A stretch of 42,432 bases of DNA from the NCBI GenBank assembly GCA_013001975.1, contig JABDKX010000183.1:1-42432 (forward strand). Reading direction: 5' to 3'. The translations under genes were made by a program, and so were the position numbers. Each line of letters opens with the position of its first letter. Position 1 is the first letter of the stretch. This stretch comes from Saprospiraceae bacterium (lineage in GTDB: Bacteria > Bacteroidota > Bacteroidia > Chitinophagales > Saprospiraceae). The notes below the pieces were generated by a model, which did not search any database, was not told where the DNA came from, and saw only the letters and a list, made by a program, of their open reading frames with translations. Below, one piece after another: positions 13,220-19,166 of the stretch.

Positions 13220-14950
13220 TTATTCATCTAATCTGTCTAAAATTTCTTGATTAACTCTTATCAACTCATCAATTTGTTCTTGTTGAGAATTGATGATAGT
13301 CTGTTGTTCTTGGATGGCCTTTGTTAAGATAGGAATCATTCCAATTGAATTTAATGCTAGAACATCATATTCTTTAGTTTTAGGTGCCACACCTTCTTCA
13401 TTATGATTTGTAACAACGGTATGAGAATTTTCTTCTACTAATTCAGGAAAATGTTGCTGAACGTTTTGAGATATAAATCCTATTTGTGGACCACCAGCTA
13501 AGTGAAAATGTTCATAACTGTCATGGTCAAATTCGTAAGTTTTTGTTTCTAATGACATAACTTTATCTAAGACAGGATATAAATCTTCTATATTCTTTTT
13601 AAGTCTTTGATCTGACGGTGCTTGTAGCGTACCTGTGTACCATAAGTCACCATTAGCGTAAACACCCCATGAATCGGTATCTGTAGCATCAGATGTACCG
13701 TAAATAGCGATCTTATCTGGTCCTCCTGAAGGTGAAGCTGAATTGGTTACACCATATACAGCCCACTTATTTCCTGATGCTGTTGAGCTAGACATATTTC
13801 CATATACACCAAATATATTTTGAGCACCGGAATGCGCGTTAATACCTCTAGAAGCATAACTTGTCCCAGTTGTTTCTGCTCGCGCTTCAAATGCATATAA
13901 GTCATTGGTACTTCGAACTCTCATTCTATAATTTGTATTGGGGTCGATGTTAACACCTATTTCACCGTTAGAATCTATTTGAAGTCTCTCAGTTGTCCCT
14001 GTCATTAGGTTCAGATCATTAGCTGATTGAATATCTAAAGAGTGACCATCATTGTCATCATCGAAAATAAAGTGACTTCCTCCACCATTTGTTAACCACA
14101 CAGCTCTTGCATCACCGGTATCATCACCGCTTACTCGTATTCCATCAGAACCTGAAACATCAACATGTAACTTTTGAGCTGGAGAAGCAGTTCCAATTCC
14201 GAAACCTCCATCATCTTCATTATATACAGCTCTAGCAGATCCATTGTAATAAATTCCAATTACATGATCAGCTGTACTTCCTAAGTTTGCAGAAAGGGCC
14301 CATTTATCTGTGGGACTGTTAGAATTTTTAAAGAACAATCTTGCAAAATCATTGTCTTGAGTTTCGGTAAGACTTAGTGTTGGTGATGTACCATCTGAAT
14401 CATATACAACATCAAGAAGTGCAGTTGGATCATTGGTTCCAATACCAATTTCTCCAGTATTGTCAATGATTAATCTAGATTGCAACATTGTTTGAAAGTG
14501 CATTTGACCTAGTCCATTCATTCCGTATTTCATAGAATCTACATGGTGCCAAATGAATCCATAAGTAGGATCATTTTCATCTTGTCGCAAACTAAGCCAT
14601 GGATCAGAACCTGTTATTCTAAAGTTTTCACCAGCGCCATCTAAATGAAGAGATGTTGAAGGACTTGCTGTACCTATCCCAACATTTCCTGCTGTATAGT
14701 TGATATCGGATCCACTTACATTCCAAGGTGAAGTTCCACCACCTCCAGTAAGAGAAGTCCATGTTCCTGCTTTTCGTCCTTCGAAATCAGTACCGGTATA
14801 TCTGATTGTTCCATCAGTTGTTCCTGTGTTATTACCAACCGTGACACCTTCATCAGCGTCGATAGTTCCATTTTGGGCTTGAGCTGGAGTTGCAAACATT
14901 ACAAGCAACATAGCCAATGCCAATGTGTTTAAAATTTTAAGTGCTTTCAT
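13220..14950 (-). CDS. Secreted fibre-like protein with self-cleaving S74 chaperone domain
   Basis: Starting at ATG 14950 the product has 576 residues with a clear signal peptide (MKALKILNTLALAMLLVMFA, then TPAQAQ). A TTG at 14995 would overlap the upstream gene and bury the signal peptide. The middle contains four degenerate repeats of the phage-tail-spike type (GNVGIGTASPSTSLHL, GEIGIGTNDPTALLDV, GGFGIGTASPAQKLHV, GEIGVNIDPNTNYRM), expected to fold as beta-helical trimer. The last 131 residues are a peptidase S74 intramolecular chaperone domain: PSDQRLKKNIEDL with the Ser-Asp scissile site near residue 446, GFISQNVQQHFPELV, and a terminal coiled coil. In phage endosialidases this domain trimerises the fibre and cuts itself off. 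The gene follows the LuxR-type gene by 34 bases with no promoter visible between. Confidence 0.87.
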   Translation of the reverse strand: MKALKILNTLALAMLLVMFATPAQAQNGTIDADEGVTVGNNTGTTDGTIRYTGTDFEGRKAGTWTSLTGGGGTSPWNVSGSDINYTAGNVGIGTASPSTSLHLDGAGENFRITGSDPWLSLRQDENDPTYGFIWHHVDSMKYGMNGLGQMHFQTMLQSRLIIDNTGEIGIGTNDPTALLDVVYDSDGTSPTLSLTETQDNDFARLFFKNSNSPTDKWALSANLGSTADHVIGIYYNGSARAVYNEDDGGFGIGTASPAQKLHVDVSGSDGIRVSGDDTGDARAVWLTNGGGSHFIFDDDNDGHSLDIQSANDLNLMTGTTERLQIDSNGEIGVNIDPNTNYRMRVRSTNDLYAFEARAETTGTSYASRGINAHSGAQNIFGVYGNMSSSTASGNKWAVYGVTNSASPSGGPDKIAIYGTSDATDTDSWGVYANGDLWYTGTLQAPSDQRLKKNIEDLYPVLDKVMSLETKTYEFDHDSYEHFHLAGGPQIGFISQNVQQHFPELVEENSHTVVTNHNEEGVAPKTKEYDVLALNSIGMIPILTKAIQEQQTIINSQQEQIDELIRVNQEILDRLDE

Positions 14951-14984
14951 TATGATTTTTTTTAAATGTGTTTTAATTAAATAT

Positions 14985-15221
14985 TTAGCTAGCAAGTTCT
15001 AGTCGGTGAGAAGGTGATACACTTAAGTATCCTAATTCAAATCCCACTCTGACAAGCCCTGCAGAGTTTTTCGTTCCTAATTTTAGTAGCAAATTTTTGC
15101 GATGTGTCTTTGCTGTTTCTGCACTAATAAATAATTTCTGACCTATTTCGATTGTTGAAAAAGCCATACTTATCAGTTCCAATACTTCAAGCTCTCTGTT
15201 AGATATTCTCATCGTTTTCAT
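14985..15221 (-). CDS. Stand-alone LuxR/GerE-type HTH regulator
   Basis: The 78-residue protein consists almost entirely of one LuxR-family C-terminal helix-turn-helix: ISNRELEVLELISMAFSTIE, then the recognition part FISAETAKTHRKNLLLKLGT. There is no receiver, PAS or autoinducer domain, so it would be controlled by abundance or by dimerisation with a full-length regulator. Either ATG 15221 or ATG 15212 could be the start. Its 5' end overlaps the 58-residue gene by 23 bases and the fibre gene follows directly, so the three appear to be one operon. The HTH resembles that of the response regulator encoded at 17733-18344. Confidence 0.85.
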   Translation of the reverse strand: MKTMRISNRELEVLELISMAFSTIEIGQKLFISAETAKTHRKNLLLKLGTKNSAGLVRVGFELGYLSVSPSHRLELAS

Positions 15222-15375
15222 TTTCTTTTTTTATATGGTTATCAAGGTCTTTATCAATTGTGTTCAAGGTTTCGATAATAGCTTTAAAGAAAAGATTGTC
15301 GTCTGAATTAGGTTGATAACTTTTAATGTCTTCGATTAAATCTTCTGGCAACCATCTTTTAAAAACTATCTTCAT
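15199..15375 (-). CDS. 58-residue protein of unknown function, first gene of the fibre operon
   Basis: A 58-codon frame runs from ATG 15375 to TAA 15199. The product starts MKIVFKRWLPEDLIEDIKSY and ends in a very acidic/charged tail (KKENENDENI). It overlaps the LuxR-type gene by 23 bases and lies just downstream of the palindrome-plus-promoter at 15398-15445, which would have no other first gene. Those two facts support it as real. It has no membrane segment and no motif I recognise; a small helical protein that binds the downstream HTH protein would fit, but that is speculation. Confidence 0.6.
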   Translation of the reverse strand: MKIVFKRWLPEDLIEDIKSYQPNSDDNLFFKAIIETLNTIDKDLDNHIKKENENDENI

Positions 15376-15397: not shown

Positions 15398-15445
15398 CAA
15401 ATATCAGACGGTACGTTGATGGTTTACCTATACTTTAGTACAGTT
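15398..15445 (-). promoter_or_regulatory. Promoter with palindromic operator, fibre operon
   Basis: Read on the minus strand, the imperfect palindrome at 15445-15426 (plus-strand form ACCTATACTTTAGTACAGTT) is followed by a 20-base spacer and GATATTTG (15405-15398), one mismatch from the -7 consensus TAnnTTTG. There is no TTTG at -33; the palindrome occupies that place. The ATG at 15375 lies 22 bases after the -7 element. The right half and centre of the palindrome are identical to the perfect copy at 19147-19166. Confidence 0.65.
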
Positions 15446-15555
15446 TTAAATCTTAAAGAGAGAAATTTTAAAAATTTGATAAGATTGGGCATAACAATTT
15501 TGTAATTGTTAGCTTCTTGAAAATCAAAAAATAATAATGAAAATAAGCTAATGAG

Positions 15556-17727
15556 TTAAGCCGCCTTGTTGTAGTTTTTAATGTTTAATTGGATACTTAA
15601 TCCATTATCAACATGCATTTGTAATTGTGCTTTTAGCTTTTGAGAAAAAGCTTTGATGAGTTCAAATCCGAATGACTTTCCATCAATTTCATCAGTGCTC
15701 TTAATGGAATTTCCGTTGTCCTTTACAACTAAAATAAGTTGGTCCTTGACTTCAGTTAATTTGATATAGATTTCGCCTTCAGTTTGATTTGCTTTAAAAG
15801 CATGTTTAAAAGCGTTACTTACAAGCTCATTAAGTACGAGGCCAAGAGGAATCATCGTGTCGACATCGAGGGTAATGTCTTCAACCTCCATTTTTAACTT
15901 TACGTCTTCTTCATTTATATTATAAGAATAGAAGAGATTGTCTATGAGGTGTTCGAAATAACTTGAGGTTGATACGCCAACCAAATTTTTGCCTTCATAC
16001 AAATCTTGATGTATTAGTGCCATCGAATGCACTCTGTCCTGGCCTTGTTTTAAGGCATTCAAAGCAGTGTCATCACTAATGTATTTAGATTGTAATGCTA
16101 ATAAAGAAGATATAACTTGAAGATTGTTTTTTACTCTGTGATGAATTTCTTTGAGTAGAACATCTTTTTCAGATAATGATTTTTCAACGACTAGTTTTTG
16201 AGATTTCACCTTTCCCAATAGTCTTGCAATGAAACTCAGTAAAATACCAAAAATGATGACTGCGAAAAGAGATCCATATATAATAAATCTTTGTTGTTTG
16301 AGTTGAACTGATTTAAGATTATTTTCATAAGCCAATAATGAGATTTGATTGTCCTGTTGATTCTTTTGATATTGTGCTTCTAAATCATGAACAAAATAAG
16401 ATTGTTCAATTTGATACAGTGAATCTTTTAGGGTATTGTATTCTTTTAGTTGATCTAATGCACCTTTATAATTTCCAATTTTATAATAGTACTCTGAGAG
16501 TAAATTTGACATACTGGTTTGAAGATGTAAGTTTGACATTTCAACAGCAGTAGATTGCGCATCCAAAATAAATGGTAAGGAGTTTCTGAAATCAGAATGG
16601 TATTTATAAAATGCTTGGGTTGATTTATAATTTAATAAAAGTCTTCCATCATCTAGATTGTTTAGAAGTTCTTTGACTTCCTTCAATAATAAATCGACTT
16701 TTGAGAAATCGTTGAGTTTCATTTTACAAGAAGCCATTCCCAAATTGATACGCGCCTTTAAGGACTTTCTTCCTTTACTCGCTGTTATGATGCTATCTGA
16801 TATTTCATAATAAGATAAAGCTTGTTGATAGTTCCCTCTTCGTTTATAAATTTTTCCAAGCGCATTATAGGGTCTTAGTTTTGAAGTTTTTAATCCTAGT
16901 TTCTCACAATACTCTAAGGATAATTTTGCATATTCTTCTGATTTTTGAAGATTGTTCATATTTAGAAATACAGCAGAAATTTCTGTGTATATTGAAGCAT
17001 ATTTAAACTTATCGATGACGGGGCGTAAATATGCTACAGCTTCAAATAAAATGGATATGGATTCTTCATAATTTCCTTTGTTGGATTTTATTCTAGCAAG
17101 ATTAGTGAGATTAAAAGGTAAACTAGAAGAATCCTTGTGCATCATATCAATATCAATTGCTTTTTGTAAATACGCTTCTTGATTTACTAGATCACCTTTA
17201 TTCTCATACACAAGAGAAATTGCTGAATAAGAATCAGAATAATAATCATGGCTCAAGTTTTCAGTGTTTAAAATTTCACGAGCTGCATATAAAATACTGT
17301 CTTCCTGATCTTTGAATTCATAGACGGATAATAAGGAGTTCATGGCCTCACCATATTGAACTTCCATATTATTTCTTTTTGCTAAAGTTATTGCTTCTCT
17401 GATGTAAATTTCAGCTGAATCTAATTTGAATTGATGCATAAGTCCTTTAAAAATGTGTCTCAATGCATTGATCTGAGCTACTTTATCATCATTTTTTATA
17501 TGAATGTCATTTGCTTTTTTCCACAGTTGAGTTGAACTTATATAATTTTTATTCTTAAATGCTTCAACTGCTTCCTTTTCTATATCTAAACCTTGTCCAA
17601 AAAGTATAATTGGACTGCAAAACATAAGTATGATCGTGCAGAAATGTTGCAGATAGAATTTATTTAAAACATTCAATTTGAGCATACTTTGTGTTAGGCG
17701 TTTGCTCCAAAATAGGGAATTTAACAT
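15556..17727 (-). CDS. TPR sensor histidine kinase (HisKA_2 type)
   Basis: The 723-residue product has an N-terminal signal segment (clearest if counted from the second Met at 17685: [18 protein letters not shown]), then a long periplasmic array of TPR-like helices (about 40-450, for example [30 protein letters not shown] and [15 protein letters not shown]). A coiled coil and one transmembrane helix (about 478-500, [20 protein letters not shown]) connect to a HisKA_2 dimerisation domain with [20 protein letters not shown] (phospho-His near 527) and a HATPase domain ([23 protein letters not shown]). The ATP-binding G1 box reads DNGNS where DNGKG is usual, so ATP binding may be weakened. It is third in the operon, five bases after the response regulator. 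Confidence 0.9.
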
Positions 17728-17732
17728 ACTTT

Positions 17733-18344
17733 TTATAGACCGAGCACTTTTTTAATTGCTGAAGTTCTGTTATTTACACCTAATTTTGAGTAGATATTTT
17801 GTGAATGAAATTTAATGGTACTTAAAGAAACAAATTGTTTCTTGGCGATCTGTGCATTGGTAAATCCTTCAGTAATATCTAATAAGACATCATATTCTTT
17901 TTGACTTAGTGGATCGACTGCTTTTTCATTGACTTGTTCTAGGCTTAAACTGTTGTCTGATTTTTTAAACTCATAATTATAAAGTCCAATTGTTATACTA
18001 GAAATCAGATCTCTTGTTTTGAAGGGTTTTACTATGTAGCCACTTGGATTTACTTTTTTTGCTCGGTCAAGTGTTTGGATATCGGACAGTGCTGTTAAGA
18101 ACATAAATGGTATATCGTAATTGGCTTTTAATACTTCTGCGACTTCGATGCCATCTTTGTTACCATCAATATTTATATCAAGAATTACAAATTCTGGAGA
18201 CCGATTAGCGATGTAATCAAGTGCTGTTTCACTGTCATGTGCGATACCGATAGGTAAGAAGTTGTTGCTTAATAAAGTGTCTTCTATGTGCTTGGCAATA
18301 AGCACTTCATCTTCAACTATTAAAACTTTTAGTTTTTTTTCCAT
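17733..18344 (-). CDS. Response regulator, receiver plus LuxR/NarL-type HTH
   Basis: The 203-residue protein has a complete receiver domain: acidic pocket VEDEVL (Glu11, Asp12), phosphoacceptor Asp56 in [16 protein letters not shown] with the switch Thr, and the Lys of YIVKPF. A short linker leads to a GerE-type HTH (about 143-203: [40 protein letters not shown]). It should bind DNA as a dimer once phosphorylated by one or both neighbouring kinases. It overlaps the upstream kinase gene and ends five bases before the TPR kinase gene. The inverted repeats at 19147-19166 and 15426-15445 are plausible targets, since NarL/LuxR-type proteins bind palindromes. Confidence 0.93.
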
Positions 18345-19102
18345 TATGCAGCAATTGTAAAATTTTTGATCTTTAAAGCTATACGCAGACCGGAGTCTGA
18401 ATTTACTTCAATATCAGCTTTTAATTTATTGGCGAATGCTTGAATCAATGCGTATCCAAAAGAATTTCTTTTAAGGTCGTCATGATTGTCCAATCCCTTG
18501 CCGTTATCTGATACCTCCAAAATTAAACAATCTTCTGCTTTTGTTAAGGCAACTTTAATTTTTCCTTCGTTCTTTTCCTCAAATGCATGTTTAAAAACAT
18601 TGCTTACAAGTTCATTTGTTATTAGTCCAAGTGGGATCATAGTATCTACATCTAACATCAACGCATCGATTTGAAGGTCTAAACAAATCTTCTCTTCATT
18701 TATATTATAAGAATCAAATAAATTGTCCAATATATTTTCGAAGTATTCTATACTAGAAACACCTTTTAAATTTTCAGCTGCATAAAGATCATTATGGATC
18801 AATGAAATTGTATGAACACGATTGTGTCCTTGTCGGATTGCGTCAAAAGCATTATTGTCTTGAATATAGTTGCTTTGTAATGAAAGTAACGAAGATATGA
18901 TTTGCAGATTATTTTTTACTCTATGATGAATCTCGGATATCAAAATCTCTTTTTCAGAATTGGCTTTGACTAATGCTTGATTTTGATTAATTATTCTCGA
19001 GCGAAGTTTATAGATTACATAAATCAACATAGTAACCAACACAACGCCTAAGTATATATACGCATTTTGAATACCTAACTTTATAAATAGCAGCAATTGC
19101 AT
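18344..19102 (-). CDS. Small membrane histidine kinase (HisKA_2 type)
   Basis: The 252-residue product has one N-terminal transmembrane helix (about residues 14-32, [19 protein letters not shown]), a short linker, a HisKA_2 domain ([20 protein letters not shown], phospho-His 59 or 60) and a HATPase domain with N box [15 protein letters not shown]1 box DNGKG and [15 protein letters not shown]. It lacks any sensory domain outside the membrane. Its kinase half is closely similar to that of the TPR kinase in the same operon (shared motifs TMIPLGL and SYNINEE), pointing to duplication. It starts the operon and has a promoter with a perfect palindrome 45 bases upstream. Confidence 0.92.
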
Positions 19103-19119
19103 CGTTGAGACTTGAATTT

Positions 19120-19166
19120 CAAAGTTAGAAATGAAAAAGTTAGATCAACTGTACTTTAGTACAGTT
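19120..19166 (-). promoter_or_regulatory. Promoter with perfect palindromic operator, kinase operon
   Basis: Plus-strand 19147-19166 is AACTGTACT-TT-AGTACAGTT, a perfect inverted repeat with 9-base arms. On the minus strand a 19-base spacer follows, then TAACTTTG (19127-19120), a perfect -7 element; the kinase ATG is at 19102. The -33 position has no TTTG and coincides with the inner edge of the palindrome, the layout of an activator-dependent promoter. The palindrome directly abuts the stop codon of the DUF1415 gene. Confidence 0.75.

Follow-up and report, generated by a model that had tools for sequence, protein, structure and literature searches.

A palindromic box ahead of two neighboring operons of a Saprospiraceae bacterium, predicted to be the operator of a NarL/FixJ-type response regulator

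Introduction

The lux box is a 20-nucleotide (nt) dyad that lies 42.5 bases upstream of the transcriptional start, with LuxR acting as an activator (PMC7585371, excerpt). DosR has been assayed on a 20-bp consensus fragment, and its core DNA-binding residues are given as K179, K182, and N183 (PMC5999986, excerpt), while CviR is reported to recognize CTGNCCNNNNGGNCAG (PMC12114271, excerpt). Housekeeping promoters of Bacteroidota carry TAnnTTTG at −7 and TTTG at about −33 (PMC7366714, excerpt). Here, we analyzed a stretch of 42,432 nt from a Saprospiraceae bacterium (contig JABDKX010000183.1 of assembly GCA_013001975.1), referred to in its whole length as the window, in which two closely similar palindromes stand ahead of two neighboring predicted operons. 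Our comparisons make it quite probable that the response regulator encoded between the two sites uses this palindrome as its operator and activates both its own operon and a fiber operon. The architecture, a NarL/LuxR-type activator with a dyad near −42, is known already. Among the matches listed by a literature search, the excerpts contained no description of this box, its regulon, or its family, of a box for such regulons in Saprospiraceae, or of a series of Bacteroidota boxes linked to the recognition helix, all of which appear to be new.

Results

The window lies on contig C40 of an assembly of 4.2 Mb that is 98.6% complete. The following features carry the argument.

19147 to 19166: operator 1 (predicted), a perfect 20-bp palindrome, AACTGTACTAAAGTACAGTT (minus strand), upstream of the kinase-regulator-kinase operon
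19120 to 19127, minus strand: −7-like element TAACTTTG, gap of 19 from operator 1
15426 to 15445: operator 2 (predicted), AACTGTACTAAAGTATAGGT (minus strand), upstream of the 58-residue/LuxR/S74 operon
15398 to 15405, minus strand: −7-like element GATATTTG, gap of 20 from operator 2
17733 to 18344, minus strand: NarL/FixJ-type response regulator of 203 amino acids (aa), the proposed binder (Pfam, orthologues, helix class)
17805 to 17822, minus strand: codons 175 to 180 of the regulator, the recognition-helix stretch S-T-I-K-F-H (alignment, helix comparison)

The two boxes read CTGTAC-N4-GTACAG (operator 1) and CTGTAC-N4-GTATAG (operator 2), both mismatches of the latter falling within the promoter-proximal arm, and the −7-like elements appear on the forward strand as CAAAGTTA (19120 to 19127) and CAAATATC (15398 to 15405). 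A preliminary description of this DNA had already reported a perfect 20-bp repeat and a copy with two mismatches in one arm at these positions, an inner edge 19 or 20 bases from a −7 element, and no further copy in the window. All of this was confirmed, including the gaps of 19 and 20, and a scan with AACTGTACTNNAGTACAGTT that allowed up to three mismatches returned exactly two sites, operators 1 and 2. By comparison, 100 dinucleotide shuffles of the window gave a mean of 0.02 sites and never two. The identical orientation and spacing claimed for the sites holds as far as position and center (AA on the coding strand) are common to both; a palindrome has no orientation of its own.

In both promoters, the palindrome occupies the place of the −33 element. 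With TAnnTTTG set at −7, the transcript would start a few bases after this element, and the 20-bp dyad, at a gap of 19 to 20, would be centered at about −42 relative to this predicted start. A TAnnTTTG score of at least 5 is reached at 1.4% of window positions. The DUF1415 gene that precedes operon 1 ends with its stop codon right at operator 1. A direct repeat, AAAGTTAGA (19121 to 19144, two copies 15 apart), lies between this palindrome and the kinase gene and overlaps the −7 element.

Throughout the 4.2-Mb genome, operators 1 and 2 are the only two good copies of the box. The next-best sites, with 3 of 18 mismatches, occur at three places, compared with four for the reversed control, and were rejected as regulon members, all three (L003 to L005) lying inside open reading frames (ORFs) of 339, 215, and 686 aa. 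When the genome was scanned with CTRTACTWWAGTAYAG at up to two mismatches, 12 sites were obtained, compared with 37 for the reversed control. The ten weaker two-mismatch sites (L344 to L353, of which L346 is the L005 site) were likewise rejected, 7 of the 10 lying inside ORFs of at least 100 aa, and none of the sites L003 to L005 and L344 to L353 had a TAnnTTTG match of at least 5/6 at a gap of 19 to 21. The genome-wide search for stray copies that the preliminary description had suggested thus found none placed at a promoter. The rarity of box-like sequences relative to the control in this genome is an observation in itself, which avoidance or composition could explain.

A search for orthologues of the regulator in 298 family genomes yielded three close ones, in G245, G199, and G295 (74, 71, and 68% over the matched part; 67 to 72% to the window regulator in the alignment), after which the next relative drops to 61%. 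The box was found in four of the four Saprospiraceae genomes that hold the regulator or a close orthologue, the window's included, while the 61% relative had no box in its locus, nor one genome-wide at up to one mismatch. In the search of related genomes that the preliminary description had proposed, the box stands before orthologous operons: TACTGTACTAAAGTACAGTT lies ahead of a 70-aa LuxR gene and an S74 gene in G245, and AACTATACTAAAGTACAGGT lies ahead of a 60-aa ORF and an S74 gene in G199. In G295, sites behind the regulator gene precede its kinase gene and a divergent gene for an LRR/Ig/Por-secretion protein, and three further sites lie elsewhere in that genome. One of these stands before an ORF of 66 aa that looks like the 58-residue protein; the other two stand before a thiolase gene and a gene of 411 aa for which Pfam gave no match. 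The targets that match those of the window are therefore the luxR-S74 pair of G245, the short ORF-S74 pair of G199, and the kinase gene and 66-aa ORF of G295. The G295 genome also contains a repeated cluster (L154:4626-12510) of thiolase-like genes and unplaced proteins with two box-plus-gap-20 sites.

In these four genomes, CTRTACTWWAGTAYAG at up to one mismatch gave 12 sites, compared with 7 for the reversed control. Two of them, both deep in an ORF and without the element, were left out of scoring (G199 contig C40, in a 1,346-aa ORF, and G245 contig C235, in a 379-aa ORF); one of the ten retained, L125:11822, lies within a mechanical ORF but upstream of the likely start, a Met before a signal-like stretch. 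For the ten retained sites, the TAnnTTTG match was scored at each gap between 0 and 59, reading toward the gene that follows the site. Nine had 5 or 6 of 6 at gap 20, and the remaining one had 6/6 at gap 19. The mean score was 5.0 at gap 20, 3.6 at gap 19, and at most 2.9 at all other gaps; gap 20 still ranked first when either direction was permitted, and none of 5,000 flank shuffles reached either measure of spacing.

The recognition helices of the orthologues read S-T-[IV]-K-F-H. The first palindrome scans also matched sites beside GAF-LuxR genes with R-T-[IV]-K-F-H, where the sites lie ahead of either a glyoxalase-type gene or a pair made up of an SDR and a queuosine gene. At this place, G371 has a GAF-HisKA_3 kinase together with a response regulator whose helix reads R-T-V-K-F-H. 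A helix-turn-helix (HTH) model built from eleven [SR]TxKFH-type domains was run over 398 genomes. All helices of the 30 best loci were of the form [SR]-T-[IV]-K-F-H, and CTGTACTNNAGTACAG was present within the locus at up to 2 of 14 mismatches in 28 of them, the two misses being G245, where the box lies beyond the locus, and G127 (L308). Outside the model's building set, the count was 18 of 19 loci, three of which share one HTH sequence and one of which (G203) had been met earlier by its palindrome. None of 26 other regulator relatives had CTGTACTNNAGTACAG (23 helices could be read, all N-T-x-K), and the controls gave 1/30 and 0/26 for the reversed pattern and 8/300 for random sequence. F alone is insufficient, since 6 of the 23 N-T helices have F or Y before H (five N-T-V-K-F-H and one K-Y-H). 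Together with the counts of small LuxR homologues given below, these figures indicate that the box follows the type of recognition helix and not the 78-residue LuxR protein of the second operon.

An HTH tree was computed from 53 domains of 56 loci (three relatives lacked a helix match) over 58 columns, with 21 of 48 forks left open. The 26 GAF-class domains formed one clade (100/100), and the four window-type HTHs stood apart from it, joined to four N-T-x-K-W-H regulators (97/96); in spite of the few columns and the open forks, this division has good support. Because the two groups separate, the shared match of helix and box is not only a matter of shared descent, and the CTGTAC specificity with [SR]...F probably arose twice. 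CviR, the HTH of which aligns with S-E-R-T-V-K-F-H and which is reported to use CTGNCCNNNNGGNCAG (PMC12114271, excerpt), provides an outside anchor for the reading of CTG by this helix type. The CTGTAC-type palindrome is itself conserved beside GAF-LuxR one-component regulators or GAF-kinase/regulator pairs (L041, L043, L065, L068, L253, and most of L284 to L313).

When the 398 genomes of the family were scanned for the box, 24 of them yielded 32 sites in all, compared with 15 sites for the reversed control, so part of the yield is noise. Of the 12 loci L237 to L248, three had an element of at least 5/6 at a gap of 19 to 21, namely, L242 (before luxR), L243 (before S74), and L248 (HxlR-type). 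Of two further sites that were read, the one in G278 contig C543 fits, and the one in G127 contig C600 does not. In four loci (L241, L245, L246, and L248), CTATACTWWAGTATAG palindromes stand directly before HxlR-type regulator genes; these are probably an unrelated autoregulatory site that is alike by accident.

The remaining regulator loci were searched for sister palindromes at gaps of 19 to 21. In G005, which belongs to the genus of the window, TATCACCCAGGTGGGTGATA precedes a luxR-S74 pair, and a similar palindrome occurs in G029. The pattern TCACCC-N4-GGGTGA had 55 sites at up to one mismatch, with a mean element score of 4.58 at gap 20 compared with 2.43 over all gaps; 39 of the 55 scored 5 or 6 at gaps 19 to 21, either strand being allowed. 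Exact boxes were counted within 4.5 kb of 76 regulator genes (150 to 299 aa, blastp 1e-30 or better to the window regulator, readable helix, duplicates removed). CTRTAC-N4-GTAYAG was found at 4/4 STxKFH rows and 0/72 others (Fisher p 7.8e-07), TCACCC at 24/50 NTxK[TSHKV] rows, a class that includes one H-T-V-K-T-H row, and 2/26 others (0.00028), CCATAC-N4-GTATGG (class C) at 4/7 NTxKW rows and 0/69 others (2.7e-05), and CTAYCC-N4-GGRTAG (class D) at 3/7 NTxKF (0.0046) and 2/8 NTxKY rows (0.083), all of these p values being too optimistic, since the rows share ancestry and the counts took in loci in which the sister classes had first been noticed. Classes C and D were picked out by motif searches of seven loci each, and the rows then counted overlapped with these loci; the TCACCC class, too, was first noticed in loci that entered the count. 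Shuffles gave no exact box, and reversed patterns gave one row.

When two mismatches were allowed, class C was found in 4/7 loci compared with 2/7 for the reversed pattern at an element score of at least 4 (3 compared with 2 at a score of at least 5), and class D was found in 3/7 compared with 2/7 at a score of at least 4; window-class rows match both C and D at this level because CTATAC lies within two mismatches. Of all these counts, only the exact ones are clean; with mismatches, the small classes are inseparable from the reversed control. Together, these comparisons support the view that relatives use other palindromes in the same promoter geometry, CCATAC and CTAYCC on fewer cases.

The other genes of the two units are as follows.

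18344 to 19102, minus strand: HisKA_2 histidine kinase, 252 aa (Pfam)
15556 to 17727, minus strand: TPR and HisKA_2 histidine kinase, 723 aa, third gene of operon 1 (Pfam)
15199 to 15375, minus strand: 58-aa protein (ORF list; by-eye likeness to short ORFs of relatives)
14985 to 15221, minus strand: 78-aa GerE-only (LuxR HTH) protein (Pfam)
13220 to 14950, minus strand: Peptidase_S74 fiber-like protein (Pfam; mechanical ORF, 13220 to 14995)

Operon 1 (15556 to 19102, minus strand) encodes, in order, the 252-aa kinase, the 203-aa regulator, and the 723-aa kinase, and operon 2 (13220 to 15375, minus strand) encodes the 58-aa, 78-aa GerE, and Peptidase_S74 proteins. Within each unit, the genes overlap or almost touch, which makes two operons likely, and the regulator gene is presumably cotranscribed with the HisKA_2 kinase genes that flank it on either side. 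The regulator has a receiver domain (PF00072, E 5.8e-19) and a C-terminal GerE/LuxR HTH (PF00196, E 4.5e-16). Its D56 is invariant across the four orthologues in the alignment and, judging by its role in the family, would be the phosphoacceptor aspartate. The Pfam listing gave no autoinducer-binding domain for the regulator or the 78-aa protein and no match for the 58-aa protein. Judged by eye, the short ORFs after the box in G199 and G295, of 60 and 66 aa, respectively, resemble the latter; only the G199 ORF was compared with it in a two-row MAFFT alignment. The probable start of the S74 protein (14950) and its N-terminal signal-peptide-like stretch were also judged by eye. Elsewhere in the source genome (G000:C211, L105), a paralogous TPR-HisKA_2 kinase adjoins a regulator with a K-T-V-E-S-H helix, on a contig in which a weight-matrix scan detected no CTGTAC-type site.

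Discussion

The idea that a single factor acts on both palindromes, the regulator encoded between them being the simplest candidate, was at first a guess based on their closeness. Comparison with relatives now supports it: the box accompanies the orthologues in four of four genomes, keeps a fixed distance from the −7 element, and follows the helix type. We thus consider there to be a good probability that the palindrome is the operator of the regulator at 17733 to 18344. In the mechanism that we propose from the sequence data, one or both HisKA_2 kinases would respond to a signal by phosphorylating the regulator, which would occupy the 20-bp site as a dimer formed by its LuxR-type HTH domains. 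Bound about 42 bases upstream of the predicted start of transcription, in the place of the −33 box, it would recruit RNA polymerase to the TAnnTTTG −7 element, thereby activating its own operon in a positive feedback as well as the 58-residue/LuxR/S74-fiber operon. The 58-residue protein and the 78-residue LuxR protein would be passengers or later-acting parts.

Several observations weigh against this explanation. The four orthologues form one related group, and the 4/4 count therefore does not represent four events independent of one another. Autoregulation is not universal, since the scan of G245, at the threshold used, detected no box before the regulator gene itself. With one mismatch allowed, 2 of 58 NTxK[TSYHKV] rows show a CTGTAC-like palindrome. 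For sites of the GAF class, the best −7-like scores fall at gaps 44 and 9 instead of 20; gap 20 ranks fifth of 60 for nine sites and is at the mean for 25 sites (five of the 30 loci, the four regulator orthologues and L308, being excluded), and hence the same box does not enforce one geometry. Two gap-20 sites in G278 (before an S74 gene and a 153-aa gene in C543) and one in G152 (before a luxR gene) occur in genomes in which no HTH match reached the [SR]TxKFH score class. These assemblies are 85 and 92% complete and may lack the regulator, or CTATAC may be read by another helix; the nearest regulator of G278 has N-T-I-K-W-H, a class that goes with CCATAC, one base from CTATAC. Finally, four CTATAC-type sites stand beside HxlR-type genes, one of them with a gap-19 element, so the box sequence alone is not specific.

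Of the other explanations, the one that survives best is that the regulator binds these sites but represses, or acts in both directions. The position of the sites taken alone is compatible with it, but the box replaces the −33 element and its distance to the −7 element is constant, as with the activator LuxR, and we regard repression as unlikely. It is less likely still that the 78-residue GerE-only protein (14985 to 15221), which the preliminary description had allowed as an alternative binder, binds the palindrome and controls both operons. This protein does have a LuxR-type HTH encoded within the controlled operon, and homologues of 70 and 68 aa follow the box directly in G245 and a gap-20 site in G152, respectively. 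Its helix, however, reads E-T-A-K-T-H, unlike the box-linked class, and its homologues mostly lack the box: among 40 loci (L104 to L143, the window excluded), ten have a small homologue and one of these ten has a CTRTAC box, and the loci with boxes that were fetched from G199 and G295 showed no small homologue.

Slightly more improbable again is that the sites belong to another LuxR-type regulator encoded elsewhere, such as a GAF-LuxR protein. In relatives, GAF-LuxR or GAF-kinase/regulator genes do adjoin the same palindrome, together with an SDR-queuosine pair or a glyoxalase-type gene, and as the genome is 98.6% complete, another regulator could have gone unseen. Against this, the window regulator has the only HTH of the high-scoring class in the genome (E 2e-31, the next being 3e-21), and none of the 15 GerE genes of this genome has an open frame between 229 and 959 aa, the range in which GAF-LuxR genes (312 to 336 aa) fall. 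That the palindromes are RNA hairpins, terminators, or chance repeats is contradicted and hardly credible, for although operator 1 adjoins the DUF1415 stop codon and can fold (z −2.5, minus strand), a terminator scan has no entry there, the folding of operator 2 does not exceed that of shuffles (z 0.08), and the −7 spacing is kept at sites with no DUF1415 homologue detected nearby.

Control of both operons by the regulator encoded between them thus remains our preferred reading, and two expectations of the preliminary description have to be revised under it. It had pictured a small self-contained regulon; instead, the system belongs to a larger family that uses other palindromes in the same geometry, and in G295, box-plus-element sites also precede genes other than such operons. 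In all likelihood, the regulon of the window is a branch with switched specificity within a widespread Bacteroidota promoter system of kinases and NarL-type regulators, in which the geometry of the promoter is kept and box sequence and recognition helix vary together. A general recognition code can be put forward more tentatively, as a possibility that we hold to be somewhat short of even. The geometry (20-bp palindrome, 20 bases, TAnnTTTG) would be fixed, and the two residues flanking T-[IV]-K would set the half-site: N..T would go with TCACCC, N..Y or N..F with CTAYCC, N..W with CCATAC (perhaps CTATAC), and [SR]..F with CTGTAC, the last specificity having arisen twice, in GAF-LuxR proteins and in the branch of the window, where the whole regulon would have switched from an N-type box. 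The comparison relates operator sequence to residues of the helix in natural regulators with a common promoter geometry, so that the way in which a two-component regulon changes its DNA code becomes directly testable. It also connects a predicted S74 fiber with a defined two-component system, and its boxes can be used to annotate such regulons in Saprospiraceae genomes.

Among known systems, the NarL/FixJ response regulators DosR/DevR have the same combination of receiver and GerE HTH as the window regulator, and DevR is among its solved relatives. When placed by hand, K179, K182, and N183 of DosR fall on the window regulator's S175, K178, and F179. With this placement, only the K182 equivalent, K178, is present, S and F standing at the other two positions, and positions 175 and 179 are the two that differ between the box classes. 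The window system differs from DosR in its kinases, which are of the HisKA_2 type, and in its box and targets. The palindrome resembles the lux box as a 20-nt dyad, and its predicted position of about −42 would agree with 42.5; unlike quorum-sensing LuxR, the system has no autoinducer-binding domain in Pfam, and its input is likely the kinase. CviR has a helix like that of the window class, E-R-T-V-K-F-H, with a box, CTGNCCNNNNGGNCAG, that neither window box matches. Compared with the housekeeping promoters of Bacteroidota, the two promoters of the window are alike at −7, and the −33 position is held by the palindrome.

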